A stretch of DNA of 64,000 nt, taken from Sedimenticola selenatireducens DSM 17993 (lineage in GTDB: Bacteria > Pseudomonadota > Gammaproteobacteria > Chromatiales > Chromatiaceae). A program made the translations under genes and the position numbers. Each line of letters opens with the position of its first letter. Within the stretch, counting starts at the first letter, position 1. Below, piece after piece: positions 4,745-19,738 of this stretch. The DNA lies in contig NZ_ATZE01000008.1 in assembly GCF_000428045.1 (NCBI RefSeq), positions 62,001 to 126,000 on the forward strand, in the 5' to 3' direction. Below the pieces are notes generated by a model, which had not been told where the DNA came from, did no database searches, and was given only the letters and a program-made list of their open reading frames with translations.

Positions 4745-5146
4745 GCGGCATCCGCACGCTAAAGGGTGAACAAATCCGTAACTCAGATACTGCCTTGTGA
4801 TCAGTACCGAACACGGATAGAACTCGCCTGCCCCCTAAACCCCAGGAGCAATCGGGGAAACATCAACAGGCTGTTCGCGCAGTATCGGCGGATGGCAGGC
4901 TCCGGGCAGCGGCCCGTACTGAAGAAGTGGCTGCATATGCATTCTCCCTATCCGGCCGAGCCACAAGCGCAACCGGCCTCTTTCGGGATCGGGAAATCGG
5001 TGCAAACAGAACCCCTGGATAAAGATGCCAGCCCCCAACCGCCGTGAGGCACACATCAAAATACCCAACGATTATCCGGCGATCCCTAGCCATAGTGGCA
5101 ACGAGTGCGGATAGACAATGCCCGTCTCCACCTGCGTATCCTCGAA
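4745..5146. other. Convergent intergenic region, no gene seen
   Basis: About 400 bases between the PEP-CTERM hairpin and the pckA stop codon. Short open frames exist on both strands, but none has a ribosome site, a recognisable domain or a start that makes sense, and one merely reads antisense into pckA. No hairpin with a T-run was found for pckA. Confidence 0.5.
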
Positions 5147-6772
5147 TCAGTCGATCTGCGGACCGGCAGCCACCAGGCGTTTGCCCTCGGCGGTATCGGT
5201 ATAGCGGCCGAAGTTTTCGGCGAACAGGTAGGCAAGATCCTGTGCCTTGCGGTTCCACTCCTCCACATCACTGTAGGTTTTGCGGGGATCCAGAATGCCG
5301 CTATCACAGCCGGGGAGTTCGGTCGGCACTTGCAGATTGAACACAGGGATGGTTTTGCTCGCTGCATGCTCAATCGAGCCATCCAGAATCGCATCGATAA
5401 TGACGCGAGTGTCCTTGATGGAGATGCGCTTGCCGGAACCGTTCCAGCCGGTATTCACCAGATAGGCGGTCGCTCCCACCGCCTGCATGCGCTTGACCAG
5501 CTCCCTGGCGTACTTGGTGGGGTGCAGTTTCAGGAAGGCCGCACCAAAACAGGCGGAGAAAGTCGGGGTCGGCTCTGTAATGCCGCGCTCGGTACCCGCC
5601 AGTTTGGCGGTGAATCCCGACAGGAAGTGATATTCGGTCTGATCCGGGGTCAACCTGGAGACCGGGGGCAGCACACCGAAGGCATCAGCGGTCAGGAAGA
5701 TCACCTTCTTGGCATGGCCCGCCTTGGAGACCGGTTTGACAATATTCTCGATGTGATAGATCGGGTAACTGACCCGGGTATTCTCGGTCCTTGAGCCGTC
5801 GCTGAAATCGATCTTGCCGCTCTCATCGACAGTGACATTCTCCAGCAGGGCATCGCGCTTGATGGCATGGTAGATGTCCGGTTCGTTCTCCTCGCTCAGG
5901 TTGATGGTCTTGGCATAACAGCCACCCTCGAAGTTGAAGATGCCGTCATCATCCCAGCCGTGTTCATCGTCACCGATTAACGCCCTTTTCGGGTCGGCCG
6001 ACAGGGTGGTCTTGCCGGTTCCGGAGAGACCGAAGAAGATGGCCACATCTCCCTTCTCACCCACATTGGCGGAACAGTGCATGGAGGCGATACCACGCAG
6101 CGGCAGCAGGAAGTTCATCACCGAGAACATACCCTTTTTCATCTCGCCGCCGTACCAGGTACCCCCGATCAGCTGCATCTTTTCGGTCATATTGAAGGCT
6201 ACAAAGTTCTCGCTGTTGAGACCCTGACGTTCCCAATTGGGATTGGTTGTCTTGGCTCCATTCAGCACCACGAAATCAGGTTTGAAGTTCTTTAGCTCCT
6301 CCTCGCTGGGGCGGATGAACATGTTCTTCACGAAATGCGCTTGCCACGCCACCTCGGTAATAATGCGTACACCAAGTCGGGTATTCACATTGGCCCCGCA
6401 GAAGGCATCCACCACGAATAACCGCTTGTTCGAGAGTTGCTTGGTCACCAGGGTCTTCAACTCCCCCCAGGTCTCCTGCGAGAGCATCTTATTGTCATTC
6501 TTGCCCTGATGTGACCACCAGAGGACATCGCCAGTCATGGCGTCACTGACGATGTACTTGTCTTTCGGAGAACGACCGGTAAAGATTCCTGTATTGACGT
6601 TTACAGCACCCAGTTCGGTAACCACACCCCGCTCGTACCCTTCGAGGTCCGGACGCGTCTCCTCCTCGAACAACAGCTCATAGGAGGGGTTGTGCACGAT
6701 CTCCGCCACGTCGGTGATGCCGTACTGACTGAGATCCACTTTGACTGAAAGGTCGCTGGTCGCCATATCCAT
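5147..6772 (-). CDS. pckA: Phosphoenolpyruvate carboxykinase (ATP)
   Basis: Converts oxaloacetate and ATP to PEP, CO2 and ADP; it is the entry step of gluconeogenesis and pairs logically with malate synthase nearby and the glycogen genes further on. The 541 residues match the ATP-dependent class (E. coli 540). The kinase-1a P-loop [11 protein letters not shown] and the kinase-2 region [18 protein letters not shown] with its metal-binding Asp residues are both intact. AGGAG lies five bases before the ATG at 6772; a second ATG two codons on is possible. It is transcribed leftward, alone, from a 520-bp divergent region. Confidence 0.97.
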
Positions 6773-7295
6773 ACTATCTCCTGAAGCTATATCTTAATAT
6801 TGGGAAATCGGGTACATATTCCACGTGGAGTTGCAGCACCCCACTGCACTGAAGCTCCCGCTGTCGCAAGTACCCCAATCGAGCTGCTGAAGCATCCACC
6901 CGTCAACTTGCGTTACAGTTGTTAATGTATAAATCACTGTTAATACAATCAGATAAAACTCACCACCACGCTGAACCTCAGTTACCTGGATGTTTCATTC
7001 AGTTCCGGCCCCTAATTTCGGTACCACTTAAACAAGAATAGCCGCTCCTTCCACCCTTGCCGGGTGACGGGAATGTCTCATCTGTTAGTGCAGGACTGGC
7101 TGGCCTTAATAGAAAGTAAAACTCTAATAATAAATTATGCTTATAAGGGCATTATGTTACAGGCTTGTACTCAGAACAAGACTTGAACCGTCATAACAGA
7201 ATAGACTGGCGACATAGCCAACCATTCTTTTCCGTCATTTCCCGGCGGCCTATACTCGGTACACACCTTGAACGGCTTTGTGATCCAACCCAACC
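6773..7295. other. Divergent promoter region of pckA and the RBBP9-like gene
   Basis: A 523-base AT-richer stretch without a gene. TGTTAAT occurs twice (6920-6926 and 6938-6944), 18 bp apart on the same face, about 150-170 bp upstream of pckA, and may be a tandem regulator site. Near 7134-7150 there is a -10-like A/T block for the rightward gene. No -35/-10 pair with good spacing could be fixed by eye. Confidence 0.4.
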
Positions 7296-14295: not shown

Positions 14296-14399
14296 CTGCA
14301 GCCCCGGGCAGATCCAACCCAGCACGCGCTTCAGACACTCCACACCAACAGGATTACGGCCGTCTTGCGGCGGTACCTGGATGCGTGGGATTTATAAGT

Positions 14400-14414
14400 T
14401 GCATTTTATATGCA
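14400..14414. promoter_or_regulatory. Inverted repeat in the promoter region of the CZB operon
   Basis: TGCAT-N5-ATGCA, a perfect short dyad in an AT-rich stretch about 55 bp upstream of the chemoreceptor start. A poor -35/-10 pair (TTGCAT, 18 bases, TAGGAT) overlaps it. It could be an operator, but the evidence is thin. Confidence 0.3.
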
Positions 14415-14467
14415 CATTAAATTAGGATAACCACAACAACAACGAGCTATTAATGGAGGAGTGGTCC

Positions 14468-15577
14468 ATGAGCATTTTCGCGCCCCTTATGTCACGTATG
14501 AGCAGACAGGTCCCGTCTCCTGCACAGCGACTGGAAGATCAACTGGAACTGCTGCGTGACGAACTGGAACTCAGCCGCAATCAGTCCCGCGAGCAACAGC
14601 AGCTGGCCGAGGAGCGGGAACTCGCCCTGTGTAAGGAGCGGGAGACCAGGGCCTACTATGAGTCGGAACTCCAGTCACTCTCCCTGCGCATGCGCAGGAT
14701 GCGCAAATCCTTCGAGTGGCTGGATGAAAACCTGCTTAAAAGCAGCTCTGCCATCGGGGAAGCGGTCATTGTCTCACGCGGCGCCAAGGAGCGAATTGAA
14801 CAGCTGGCCACCGAACTGACCGGTCTGACGCAGTTACAGGGACAACAGCTCTCCACCTTCGAGGGCCTGTTCGGTGAGATCCGCCAGATCTCCACTATCG
14901 TTGGTAATATCAGCAAAATAGCCGAGCAGACCAATCTGCTCTCCCTGAACGCCGCCATCGAAGCCGCCCGGGCGGGTGAGCATGGTCGGGGCTTTACCAT
15001 TGTCGCGGGCGAAGTGCGCACCCTCTCCTCAACCACCGGTGCCTCGGCCAAGCAGGCCGATGGCTTCCTTAAAGGGCTGGCCGCCACCTCGACAGAACTG
15101 GGTGAGATCAACCGTACATTGTCGACCAACGTGGACGGCATCGCCCGGGGTACCGTCAACACCCTGGACGACCTGGGCGCCCAGCTGGAGCGGATCAGCG
15201 CCACCCAGGCCGACCTGGAGAGCGCCAACTGGCGCTCCAAGCTGGAGTTGGCGATGATCGACGAGACCTTCCTGCGCAACGATATCATTACCTATGTCAA
15301 CCACCCCACCGGGGAGAGCCTTTCCAACATTCCCTCCTCCCGGGAGTGTGGTATCGGCAAGTGGTACTATGCGGATGAGATCCGGCAACGGTTTCGCGGA
15401 GACAGGCTGTTCATCGCCCTGGAAGAGCCGCACGACCGGGTTCATGAGCATGCGGAACACGCCGTGACACTAACCGATCAGGGCGATCATAAAGGCGCCC
15501 AGGAACAGATCAGTCTGATGGAGTCACAATATCTGACGGTCGAAAGAATCCTGCTTGAGCTGGTCTCGAACAGCTAG
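14468..15577 (+). CDS. Soluble chemoreceptor-type protein with C-terminal CZB zinc domain
   Basis: A 369-residue cytosolic protein. Residues 20-80 are a long coiled coil, residues about 90-255 a methyl-accepting signalling domain with the hairpin tip [23 protein letters not shown], and 256-369 a CZB (chemoreceptor zinc-binding) domain. There are no membrane helices or periplasmic domain. Three expected zinc ligands are present: Cys294 in CGIGKW, and His322 and His326 in PHDRVH. The first ligand, normally His, aligns with Asp272 in RNDIIT. CZB domains sense zinc and, through the Cys, hypochlorous acid, and often act on chemotaxis or c-di-GMP. The start at 14468 has GGAGGA seven bases upstream. 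It is the first gene of a three-gene operon with a hemerythrin-like and an EAL gene. Confidence 0.85.
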
Positions 15578-15586
15578 GTGGTGAAC

Positions 15587-16072
15587 ATGGAACGTCCACT
15601 GGTTTGTCAACACCTCACCGCCTCACTGACCGGTCCCGAACACCTGGCGGATTGGTCCCGGGTGCTGTTGCGGCATCATCGGGATATTCAGACAGAGATT
15701 GAACAGATTGTTCAATTACTGAAACATCCACGCTGTCATCTGCACCGGATAGAGGCACGCCTGAGGCGTTTAAGTCGTGCCGTACTGATGCACCTGGAGC
15801 TGGAGGCCTGTTTTCTCGATCCCGCGGTACGGGAGGTTTCCGGCTCCGATGGAGAGAAACTGCAGGGTCTGCGCGCCGGCTATGAGAGCCTGCGAAAGGC
15901 GGTCATGGCAACTGCCGATTTCCTGCAGCGGGAGAAACTGAGCCACCCCGCCCTGACACTCAGCGCTGAACAGCAGGATGCCATCACCCACTTGATGAAC
16001 GAAATCCATGCCCGGCTGGAGGCCGAGGACCGGGATTACCAGCAGTTTCGCGAGGGTTGGACATGCACATGA
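15587..16072 (+). CDS. Hemerythrin-like helical protein (tentative)
   Basis: A 161-residue, almost entirely helical soluble protein. His and acidic residues are placed roughly as in the HHE/hemerythrin family: LLRHHRDI in helix one, HLELEACFLDP in helix two and IHARLEAEDRDY in the last helix. A full seven-ligand di-iron set is not obvious, so it may be a degenerate or only structurally related bundle. The start at 15587 follows AGGTGGTG; an in-frame GTG three codons earlier is possible. It lies nine bases after the CZB receptor and overlaps the EAL gene, so it belongs to the same signalling operon and could carry an oxygen, NO or redox input. That role is inference. Confidence 0.55.
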   Translation: MERPLVCQHLTASLTGPEHLADWSRVLLRHHRDIQTEIEQIVQLLKHPRCHLHRIEARLRRLSRAVLMHLELEACFLDPAVREVSGSDGEKLQGLRAGYESLRKAVMATADFLQREKLSHPALTLSAEQQDAITHLMNEIHARLEAEDRDYQQFREGWTCT

Positions 16073-16863
16073 AATTACGCCTGGGCGAACAAGACCTGGT
16101 ACTCAACTGGCACCAGCAGGGGCTGGTCGCCGGCGCCCTGAACGGACTGTATGGCCGGGAAATCCTGACCCGGGCCTATTGCGCCGAGTCGGATGCGCCG
16201 GTATCACCGCAGGTACTCTTCTCCCTGCTGAAGATGCAACCGCAACGCCTGCTGGAACTGACCGTCCGGCAGATTCAGGACGTGATCGCACTGGATAGTC
16301 AGTGGCGGTTCGATGGGTCGCTCTGGTTCAATCTGGCCGGAGAGCTGTTGAAAGATGACCGCCTGTTTGGGTCACTTCTGGAATCCACCCTGCAAGCGTT
16401 GCCGCCAGCCCGGCGGCGGCGCATCGTGCTGGAGGTGGCGGAAGATGTAGTCGACAGCTCATTGATTCTGGAGCGGGTACACACCCTGCGCCGCCAGGGA
16501 TTTCTCGTAGCGATGGATGATTTCGGCGCTGGCTACTCCAACCTGGGACGCTTGCACGAGGGGGGATTCGATATCATCAAGCTCGACCTCGGGTTGATAC
16601 GGGACGTGCCAGAGCGGATCTGGGCAGCCAATTTCTATCGTGAAGTGGTGGATCTGGCCGCCTCCAGCGGCAGCCTGGTGGTGGCCGAGGGGATCGAGCA
16701 TCAAACCCAGTCGGACTTCGTCCGCTGGGCCGGCGTGGATATCATTCAGGGCTTTCTCTACTCCCGGCCACAACCGTTGCTGAGTGAACCCAACGGTGGA
16801 CTGCCCCATCCAGTCGGTTCTCCCCGGCAGCAGGAAGCGGCTGCCCTGTTGATGTGCAGTTAA
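16063..16863 (+). CDS. Stand-alone EAL-domain (c-di-GMP phosphodiesterase) protein
   Basis: A 266-residue EAL domain without a sensor domain. The usual EALLR becomes GREILTR, which keeps the metal-binding Glu. Downstream the expected residues are seen: Asn in NLAGELL, Glu in LEVAED, the DD pair in MDDFGAGYSNL, Lys in IIKLDLG, Glu in VVAEGIEH and Gln in IIQGFLYSRPQ. It is therefore likely able to hydrolyse c-di-GMP, although the non-canonical EIL signature leaves room for a binding-only role. It overlaps the hemerythrin-like gene by ten bases. I prefer the ATG at 16063 (GAGGG six bases upstream) over the ATG at 16069. Its stop is four bases from that of the opposing GGDEF-EAL gene. Confidence 0.83.
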   Translation: MHMKLRLGEQDLVLNWHQQGLVAGALNGLYGREILTRAYCAESDAPVSPQVLFSLLKMQPQRLLELTVRQIQDVIALDSQWRFDGSLWFNLAGELLKDDRLFGSLLESTLQALPPARRRRIVLEVAEDVVDSSLILERVHTLRRQGFLVAMDDFGAGYSNLGRLHEGGFDIIKLDLGLIRDVPERIWAANFYREVVDLAASSGSLVVAEGIEHQTQSDFVRWAGVDIIQGFLYSRPQPLLSEPNGGLPHPVGSPRQQEAAALLMCS

Positions 16864-16867
16864 CGCA

Positions 16868-19738
16868 CTAGCCTTCGGGGATTTCGGTTGTTGCAGGGCC
16901 GATCGCCGGTTGAATTGTGCCGGCCCACTGCTCGAACAGCTCCGGTGCCACCGGCCGCTGGAACAGATAGCCCTGTCCCAAGCGACACCCCTCTTGCAGG
17001 AGAAACTGGCGCTGCTGCTCAGTCTCCACCCCTTCGGCAATGACCTCCAGCTGCAGACTGATTCCCAGTGCAATAACCGCCCGGGTGATGGCCATGTCAT
17101 CGGAATCATCCGGGATATCCCGGACGAAGGATTGATCGATCTTCAACTGCTCAATCGGCAGGCGTTTGAGATTGGCCAGCGAAGAGTAGCCGGTACCGAA
17201 ATCATCCATCGCCAACCGCACCCCCAGGGCACGCAGCCCCTCCAGCACCGCTATCGCCTGATCAAAGTCCTCCATGATCACGCTCTCGGTCACTTCCAGT
17301 TCCAGGCAGTGCGACGGCAGGCCGGTCTCCCGCAGCACCTGCCCCACCAGGCGCACCAGATCGCCCCGCTGTATCTGGGGTGTGGCGATGTTCACCGATA
17401 TGCGGCCAAACGCCAGCCCCTGTTCCAGCCATTTTTTCGCCTGGCGACAAGCCGTGTGGAGAACCCACTCGCCAATCGGCAGGATCAGTCCGTTCTCTTC
17501 CGCCAGCGGGATAAACCTGTCGGGTGGAATCAACCCCATCTCCGGTTGCTGCCAGCGTAGCAGCGCTTCAGCACCGATCAGCTTTCCACTCTCCATATCC
17601 AGTTGCGGCTGATAGTGGAGTAGCAGTTCATCGAGTTCCAGCGCCTTGCGCAGCTTGCTCTCCAGCAACACCCGCTGCACCGCCTGCGCGGTCATCTCTT
17701 CCGTATAGAAGGCAAAACCATTACGCCCGGCCTCCTTGGCGCGATACATGGCCGTGTCGGCGTTACGCAGCAGCGAACCGCAATCACTGCCATCCCGCGG
17801 ATAGATGCTGATACCGATACTGGGGGAGATAAACACCTCCCGCTCATGCAATTGGAAAGGCGATGCGAAGTTTTCGAGAATCTTCTCCGCGGCCACTACC
17901 ACGTGGGTTGGTTCGCCAACGCTTTCCAGCAGGACAATAAATTCATCACCGCCAATGCGTGCGACGGTATCTTCCTCACGCATGCAGGCTGTCAGGCGGC
18001 CGGCAACCTGACGCAACAGTTCATCCCCCACCACATGTCCAAAACTGTCGTTGATATGCTTGAATCTATCGAGATCGATAAACAGCAGTGCCAGCCGTTG
18101 GTTGCTGCGTCTGGACTGCTCCAGCGCATGACTGAGTCGCGCATTGAACAGCAGCCGGTTGGGTAATTCTGTCAACGGATCATGGTGCGCCAGTCGTTCC
18201 AGTTGCTCCTCCGACTGCTTGAGATTGGTGATATCCGAGAACAGGGCCACGTAGTGGGTCACGCTGCCTTGGTCGTCACTGATACTGCTGATGGTCAATT
18301 GGGCCGGATAGATATTACCGTCCTTGCGCCGATTCCAGATCTCGCCGCGCCACTGACCCCGTCTGGTGATTGAACTCCACATGGCCCGATAAAAATCCGC
18401 ATCGTGCCGTTCGGATTTCCACAGCCGTGGATTGGCTCCCAGCACCTCCTCTCGGGTGTATCCGGTAATCTCGCTGAAGGCTTTATTGACATCAAGAATC
18501 CGTCCTTTAATATCGGTAATGAACATCCCTTCCGAGATATTTTCAAAAACAGCCGCCGATTGCCTTAACCGCTGCTCCGCCCGTTTTTTCTCCGTGATAT
18601 CGGTGGAGATGCCGCAGACGCCATAAATCTGACCATTTCCGTCCCGAACTGGAAACTTGATGGAGATGTAGGTGTGCATGCCATCATCCTGGGGAACCTG
18701 CTCCTCCACCTGCAATGGATGCCCGTGCTCCTGCACCTGCAGATCATTGGCCCGAAGCGCCTCGGCCTGCGCGCTGGGGAACAGATCAGAATCAAGTTTG
18801 CCAACCACTTCTTGCCCATCGAGATGAAACAGCGTCTCATACAGGTTGTTAATCATCAGATAGCGGCCATCCAGGTCTTTCAGATAGACTACCGCCGGCG
18901 CATTCGCCAGAATCGCCTGCAAACGCTGCTCGCTCAGGGTGAGTGCCTGCTGGGCTTCCATTTGGCTGGTGACGTCCTGAATCATACCCAGCGAACGCAA
19001 CGGCCTGCCGTCCTCAGCGTAGACCGTGTCGCAGTGTTCCTGGACATACTTGATGCGTCCATCCGACAGTAACAGTCGGTGCACGATGTCGTAGGGTTCG
19101 CGCCGCTTTACCGACTGACGATAAGCCTCCCCGACCGCCTCCCGATCTTCGGGGTGAATGGCGGCTTCAAAGCTTGCGTAGCTGGGCTGAAAGGTCGCCG
19201 CATCAACTTCAAAAATACGATACACTTCATCGGACCACCAAAGCGTGTCACTGGTCAGGTCCAGTTCCCAGTTGCCGCTGTTGGATAGGCGCTGTACCTC
19301 GGTAAGGCGTTTTTTAAACTGGCGAAGCTCGGTTTCATCTCTTTTTCTATCCGTGATATCCCGGCCTATGCCTAGTACACCAACCAGGCTGCCCTCGTTG
19401 TCATACATCGGCGTTTTGATGGTTTCCAGCAACTCCTGGTGGCCGTCATTGGCATAGGTGACCCACTCTTCATATACCCAGGGACCACCCGACTCGATGG
19501 CCAACCTATCCTGCTGAGAAAAAAAATCAGCCTGGTCCGGTGCGACCAGCTCATGATCAGTCTTGCCAACAATCTCCGATTCATCTGCCCCAATCAGGCT
19601 TTCAAACCGGGGATTGCAGGCCAGATAGATCCCCTGGGGGCTCTTCAGCCATACCAGGTCCGGTATGGTTTCAATCAGGGTACGCATCAAGGCACGACTC
19701 TCATCCAGTCGGGCACGGGATTGCTGTTGTACAGTCAC
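16868..19738 (-). CDS. PAS4-GGDEF-EAL c-di-GMP turnover protein
   Basis: A 956-residue soluble sensor/effector with no membrane helix. Four PAS domains, several with PAC tails (GIGRDITDRK, GMIQDVTSQ, GISTDITEKK, LFSDITNLK), cover about residues 18-510. GGDEF covers about 515-680 with the intact motif at 596-600 and an RxxD inhibitory site at 587-590. EAL covers about 695-945 with EALLR at 724-728, DDFGTGYSSL and VIAEGVET. Both active sites look complete, so it could synthesise and degrade c-di-GMP, with one activity usually dominating. No haem or flavin pocket can be assigned by eye. The start is GTG at 19738 with AAGGGG six bases upstream. It converges on the CZB/EAL operon. Confidence 0.93.
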   Translation of the reverse strand: MTVQQQSRARLDESRALMRTLIETIPDLVWLKSPQGIYLACNPRFESLIGADESEIVGKTDHELVAPDQADFFSQQDRLAIESGGPWVYEEWVTYANDGHQELLETIKTPMYDNEGSLVGVLGIGRDITDRKRDETELRQFKKRLTEVQRLSNSGNWELDLTSDTLWWSDEVYRIFEVDAATFQPSYASFEAAIHPEDREAVGEAYRQSVKRREPYDIVHRLLLSDGRIKYVQEHCDTVYAEDGRPLRSLGMIQDVTSQMEAQQALTLSEQRLQAILANAPAVVYLKDLDGRYLMINNLYETLFHLDGQEVVGKLDSDLFPSAQAEALRANDLQVQEHGHPLQVEEQVPQDDGMHTYISIKFPVRDGNGQIYGVCGISTDITEKKRAEQRLRQSAAVFENISEGMFITDIKGRILDVNKAFSEITGYTREEVLGANPRLWKSERHDADFYRAMWSSITRRGQWRGEIWNRRKDGNIYPAQLTISSISDDQGSVTHYVALFSDITNLKQSEEQLERLAHHDPLTELPNRLLFNARLSHALEQSRRSNQRLALLFIDLDRFKHINDSFGHVVGDELLRQVAGRLTACMREEDTVARIGGDEFIVLLESVGEPTHVVVAAEKILENFASPFQLHEREVFISPSIGISIYPRDGSDCGSLLRNADTAMYRAKEAGRNGFAFYTEEMTAQAVQRVLLESKLRKALELDELLLHYQPQLDMESGKLIGAEALLRWQQPEMGLIPPDRFIPLAEENGLILPIGEWVLHTACRQAKKWLEQGLAFGRISVNIATPQIQRGDLVRLVGQVLRETGLPSHCLELEVTESVIMEDFDQAIAVLEGLRALGVRLAMDDFGTGYSSLANLKRLPIEQLKIDQSFVRDIPDDSDDMAITRAVIALGISLQLEVIAEGVETEQQRQFLLQEGCRLGQGYLFQRPVAPELFEQWAGTIQPAIGPATTEIPEG

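Follow-up and report, generated by a model that had tools for sequence, protein, structure and literature searches.

Three adjacent genes of Sedimenticola selenatireducens DSM 17993 and the control region in front of them behave as one module, which is present or absent as a whole in the genomes we compared. The genes lie within the window analysed here, a stretch of 64,000 nucleotides (contig NZ_ATZE01000008.1, positions 62,001 to 126,000 of the forward strand), and encode a soluble CZB chemoreceptor (gene 1), a four-helix protein (gene 2) and a single-domain EAL protein (gene 3; Table 1). We tentatively read them as an accessory signalling operon, self-contained and carried by some Sedimenticola species, combining a variant CZB receptor with a free EAL phosphodiesterase, in which gene 2 would be an adaptor and not a diiron sensor; the relay between the three proteins is one that we infer.

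Table 1. Features of the three-gene module and CZB matches elsewhere in the same genome. Positions refer to the window unless a contig (C) is given.
Feature	Position	Strand	Basis
Conserved upstream block, promoter/operator candidate	14391..14444	+	Conservation in three species
Gene 1, soluble MCP with C-terminal CZB domain, 369 aa	14468..15577	+	Pfam MCPsignal and CZB
Gene 1, CZB ligand column E266	15263-15265	+	Alignment
Gene 1, CZB ligand column C294	15347-15349	+	Alignment
Gene 1, CZB ligand column H322	15431-15433	+	Alignment
Gene 1, CZB ligand column H326	15443-15445	+	Alignment
Gene 2, four-helix protein, 161 aa, degenerate hemerythrin candidate without full diiron motif	15587..16072	+	
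Gene 3, single-domain EAL protein	16063..16863 (alternative start 16069)	+	Pfam EAL
CZB match L001	C13:49130-49333		
CZB match L003	C33:239695-239886		
CZB match L002	C37:114308-114490		

The initial annotation had described three reading frames, the first two separated by a 9-bp gap and the last two overlapping by 10 bp, as a soluble CZB receptor, a hemerythrin-like protein and a sensorless EAL protein. The frames, all on the plus strand, and their spacing (gap 15578-15586, overlap 16063-16072) match this description and the CZB and EAL assignments hold, but the term hemerythrin-like does not, as the Pfam match of gene 2 lies below the cut-off and its diiron signature is incomplete. The overlap shrinks to 4 bp (ATGA) if gene 3 starts at its second ATG; both candidate start codons, 16063 and 16069, are retained in the other two trio-bearing species, represented by S. 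hydrogenitrophicus SB48 and the S. thiotaurini MAG BK-3. Between species, every gene or gene part compared gave a dN/dS of 0.035-0.206, a rough estimate given the large synonymous distances (0.60-1.38). Because the start codons are kept and dN/dS is low, we take the reading frames to be real genes. None of the three proteins contains a membrane-like stretch on the Kyte-Doolittle scale, the highest 19-residue means being 0.85, 0.82 and 1.03.

Within the genus, the trio occurs in three of nine genomes, that of the window included, and its gene order is identical in the three species. In the window's genome and in SB48 it is preceded by genes for the same transporter, aldo/keto reductase and methyltransferase. 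These genes are not beside the trio in BK-3, which thus provides a second genomic site. The congener G006 shows an empty site: its methyltransferase (88% identity) and PLP decarboxylase genes (93% over 410 residues) are joined by 269 bp and the trio is missing. Positions 4769-7232 of SB48 stand against 44 bp in G006, and the block so delimited begins upstream of the conserved upstream region and ends near the 3' end of the EAL gene. Since this block is absent whole from G006, upstream region included, and since the upstream region is conserved despite the different flanks of BK-3, the genes and their control region form a single unit. The initial view of a discrete unit is thereby borne out by the common order and upstream block in three species, by two locations and by an empty site in a fourth species. 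Completeness varies among the Sedimenticola genomes lacking the trio: it reaches at least 99% in G002, G003 and G006 and is 90%, 78% and 65% in G005, G007 and G004, respectively, so that absence from the least complete of these is weak evidence.

The upstream block is well conserved in all three trio species. It contains a TGCAT/ATGCA inverted repeat (14400-14414), kept in BK-3 and imperfect in SB48, which is a possible operator. Searching the genome for the 23-base core of the block with up to three mismatches allowed yielded one exact match and one match with three mismatches. A sigma-70 consensus scan of the upstream region found no promoter.

Conserved co-occurrence of the three families had been proposed as a check on the operon; across the 204-210 genomes of the order, and at the thresholds used, the gene order was not found beyond one genus, an outcome that speaks against the initial proposal. 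Gene 2 is present in three of 210 genomes, all Sedimenticola, and a contig scan that detects only close relatives returned two loci, both again from Sedimenticola. Close orthologues of gene 1 and of gene 3 were each found in three of 204 genomes. Across 369 genomes of the class, the gene 3 profile at E <= 1e-28 recovered the window's own genome alone, and with the gene 2 profile four matches of marginal significance (E 0.003-0.009) lay outside it. Distant members may be missed in these searches because only part of each genome's candidates was scored (up to 9 and 12 for genes 1 and 3 in the order, and up to 10 and 7 for genes 2 and 3 in the class). Distant relatives of gene 1 are common, with a match at E <= 1e-20 in 64 of 204 genomes at approximately 25-38% identity. 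A tblastn search with genes 2 and 3 against 27 such loci (L014-L040, flanks up to 1.5 kb) gave no match at E 1e-3.

Gene 1 scores 91.5 bits against the Pfam MCPsignal family (cut-off 34.6) and 38.5 bits against CZB (cut-off 29.4), the latter match covering only positions 27-64 of the 64-position profile. With both domains above cut-off and no membrane span, the protein is indeed a soluble CZB receptor, and its MCP domain followed by a C-terminal CZB domain places it with TlpD-like soluble chemoreceptors. In the predicted structure (mean pLDDT 87.3), a long hairpin of helices leads into a CZB region whose helices are shorter. A structure search with this model was dominated by coiled-coil matches and was uninformative for the CZB part.

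Aligning 21 CZB proteins, picked by a motif that requires a Cys and two late His, shows C294, H322 and H326 to be invariant. The first zinc-ligand column is Glu (E266) in the three gene 1 orthologues and in L151, L165 and L169. W255, which we considered as part of the first-ligand motif, was rejected, since the alignment puts that column at E266. In a larger set of 82 CZB segments from 81 loci, this position is His in 78 segments, Glu in three and Pro in one. The motif used to pick this set demanded the Cys and the two late His but not the first His, so the count is informative for the first-ligand column alone. For this set L173 was excluded as a copy of L002; the 82 loci then gave 83 segments, none of them from L003, and dropping the spurious L126_168 left 82. 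The published CZB zinc site comprises three His and one Cys in the available parts of PMC8846402 and of a preprint, PMC13370339; in gene 1, E266 takes the place of the first His. Because this column is Glu here and almost always His elsewhere, gene 1 belongs to the CZB family but has a predicted metal site of a rare type. L151, L165 and L169 are likewise soluble CZB receptors, each from a different genome of the class (G380, G370 and G410, respectively), and since they share the Glu, the variant may be a recurrent subtype.

Gene 3 matches the Pfam EAL family with 117.6 bits (cut-off 31.3) and has no other Pfam domain. We compared it with 26 of the 30 EAL matches in the same genome, leaving out L068 (internal stop), L076 (gene 3 itself) and the partial L077 and L078. 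Numbered from the start at 16069, E31, N88, E122, D150, D151, K171, E207 and Q227, which we take to be the EAL catalytic set, occupy conserved columns; the proteins of the window's genome and of BK-3 retain all of them. Several other EAL consensus columns differ; for example, a Gln present in all 26 other proteins is His15 in gene 3. From these residues, gene 3 should be active as an EAL phosphodiesterase, and the predicted enzyme is a plausible output of the operon. A PAS-GGDEF-EAL gene on the minus strand (16868-19738) converges on gene 3 with a gap of 4 bp. A full relative of it is not found at that place in SB48, where a PLP decarboxylase gene comes after the EAL gene.

A receptor and an enzyme encoded in one operon may be linked by expression alone. 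Under this explanation, gene 1 would be a CheA-coupled redox or zinc taxis receptor, gene 3 a constitutive phosphodiesterase favouring the motile state and gene 2 a separate small protein, with no physical relay between them. The conserved MCP hairpin has a role in contact with CheA and CheW. That of gene 1 is canonical, with a 62.5-bit match to a solved chemoreceptor, and Pfam sees the EAL domain alone in gene 3. Moreover, soluble receptors are the commonest CZB architecture in the available part of a published census, at 45.6% of CZB proteins (PMC8262984). Against co-expression alone, the presence or absence of the three genes and the region upstream of them as one block points to something beyond common expression for motility, and 68 of 80 CZB loci examined across the class have no EAL gene within 4 kb or up to the contig end. 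We consider this explanation rather unlikely.

These 80 loci, one of which (L173) belongs to the window's own genome, were chosen by eye, mostly in list order, from the matches listed in frames of approximately 290-720 aa; some matches in this range were excluded, as were those in longer or shorter frames. The remaining 12 have an EAL gene within that distance, a raw count from which no enrichment follows, and four of these 12 are one-frame EAL-CZB fusions (L118, L153, L175 and L187). EAL-CZB proteins make up 3.4% of CZB proteins in what is available of the same census (PMC8262984). None of the 80 loci has a recognisable hemerythrin nearby, a weak result because the seed profile used also fails on gene 2 itself. 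CZB matches number four in the window's genome: soluble receptors account for two, and the other two lie in or beside GGDEF-EAL sequence. It thus holds both kinds, although species in the available part of the survey have either CZB receptors or CZB cyclases, not both (PMC8262984). The EAL match beside the CZB domain on contig C33 (L068, C33:240004-240705) contains a TGA.

One member of the trio is broken in two of the three genomes: the EAL frame in SB48, where the 3' end continues into flanking sequence, and the gene 2 frame in BK-3. Either local decay of the module or sequence errors may account for the breaks; the one in BK-3 may stem from assembly, because BK-3 is a MAG. A more general decay, in which lineage-specific signalling genes are being lost and have little current role, would fit these breaks as well as the failure to find the trio in six of the eight other Sedimenticola genomes. 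We judge it quite unlikely, since dN/dS is low throughout, both halves of each broken gene included, and since all three frames are intact in the window's genome.

The best Pfam family of gene 2 is Hemerythrin, with a match that is near full-length (residues 26-151 on profile positions 5-123 of 127) and sub-threshold (19.1 bits against a cut-off of 25.3, E 0.002). In a genome-wide search with this family at E <= 0.001, gene 2 of the window's genome was not among the ten matches; the SB48 orthologue was found at that threshold with 23.5 bits, still below the cut-off. The bacterial hemerythrin signature is given as H-HxxxE-HxxxH-HxxxxD in the available part of PMC9388753. The first His (H30/H31) and the HxxxE of helix 2 (H69, E73) are kept in the three orthologues. 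In the alignment, none of the three has HxxxH in helix 3, and HxxxxD is absent from gene 2, whose own H141 is followed by Glu at +4 and Ala at +5; position 141 in helix 4 is His in the window, Arg in SB48 and Gly in BK-3. With two of the four signature elements missing, we reject a diiron hemerythrin on the motif, and sensing of O2 or NO by gene 2, as first proposed, is unsupported for the same reason.

The structure of gene 2, predicted from the alignment of the three orthologues, shows four long helices with a mean pLDDT of 78.1. Its structural matches are generic four-helix bundles, headed by an unrelated one at Z 13.5; the DcrH hemerythrin domain is among them (Z 11.0, rmsd 2.9 over 119 aligned residues) and does not exceed unrelated bundles. 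Of the 448 Foldseek matches at E <= 10, none reached E <= 0.001. Sequence comparison of the gene 2 profile with solved structures gave no match up to E 1. A set of 28 hemerythrin seeds from the window's and related genomes yielded nothing usable, with a best hhalign probability of 0.6% against the three-row gene 2 alignment, and a profile of these seeds does not detect gene 2 at E 1e-3. We regard gene 2 as either a hemerythrin that has degenerated or a bundle of another family; on both views it probably lacks a normal diiron centre. That it is a true metal-dependent sensor of O2, NO or redox state, gating the EAL enzyme together with the CZB receptor, is highly improbable: the weak Pfam match, the retained ligands of the first two elements and the DcrH similarity speak for it, and the missing helix-3 motif, the substituted helix-4 His and the better-scoring unrelated bundles against it.

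Our preferred reading, an accessory operon that couples a variant receptor to a free phosphodiesterase, would therefore use gene 2 in another way. The soluble receptor would read the cytoplasmic zinc or redox state through its variant E-C-H-H metal site. The four-helix bundle would link receptor and enzyme as an adaptor or a regulatory partner, a guess drawn from its missing ligands and from its position between the two genes. The EAL protein would be the output, hydrolysing c-di-GMP and lowering its level when the state of the receptor changes. Because the conserved MCP hairpin is kept, the receptor may also feed the chemotaxis array. In favour of this reading are the tight packing and constraint of the genes, their shared inheritance with the upstream block, the presumed EAL catalytic residues and the fusions of CZB with c-di-GMP enzymes elsewhere; against it are the occurrence in just three of nine genomes of one genus, the broken frames and, more weakly, the lack of a recognisable hemerythrin near the 80 CZB loci. 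In its most specific form, this reading has a Glu-site CZB receptor act through an iron-free, hemerythrin-fold adaptor on a free EAL phosphodiesterase, such that metal or redox state sets c-di-GMP without a sensor-enzyme fusion, in a unit that moves or is lost as a block; this we hold to be unlikely as a whole. Compared with the metal/redox-to-c-di-GMP relay of the initial annotation, the discrete unit and the presumed EAL catalytic residues are retained, but the O2/NO hemerythrin falls away, the first CZB ligand is Glu and not His, the gene order was found in one genus only among the genomes searched and two frames are broken.

If the relay is real, a zinc or redox sensor of the chemoreceptor type would act on a separate c-di-GMP phosphodiesterase via a repurposed hemerythrin-type bundle. 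The naturally occurring Glu at the CZB site would also be of use in finding out which ligands determine the affinity for zinc. With its one upstream block, its two locations and an empty site for comparison, the module is small and clean enough to be studied by deletion in an environmental bacterium.

A literature search, which covered few subscription papers, found no paper on this three-gene set. Links between CZB domains and c-di-GMP, between hemerythrins and c-di-GMP and between transducers and phosphodiesterases are already known from other systems. Gene 1 is reminiscent of the TlpD-like soluble CZB receptors TlpD of H. pylori and McpA of Salmonella: like them it is a soluble MCP with CZB at the C terminus, and it retains the Cys and both late His. 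It differs from them in the Glu at the first zinc ligand and in being co-encoded with an EAL protein and a four-helix protein. The pairing of a transducer with a phosphodiesterase recalls BdlA and DipA of P. aeruginosa, although BdlA is a PAS-type transducer and, unlike the trio, BdlA and DipA are not known to form an operon with a four-helix protein. In the available text of PMC4047105, the chemotaxis transducer BdlA is central to dispersion, which needs the phosphodiesterase DipA and a drop in c-di-GMP.

DgcZ and the EAL-CZB proteins likewise tie CZB signalling to c-di-GMP turnover, according to the accessible portions of PMC8262984 and PMC8846402. Whereas these proteins unite the CZB domain and the enzyme in one polypeptide, the Sedimenticola trio keeps them in separate genes with a third in between. 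According to the part available of a 2022 review, a hemerythrin phosphodiesterase of the EAL type was still to be found at that time (PMC9388753). The closest counterparts to gene 2 and its neighbour are Bhr-DGC of Vibrio cholerae and Bhr-HD-GYP of Ferrovum, which join a hemerythrin-type bundle to a c-di-GMP enzyme (PMC8846402, PMC9388753, both available in part). These are fused proteins with an iron centre, whereas gene 2 stands apart from its enzyme and has kept only part of the ligands.
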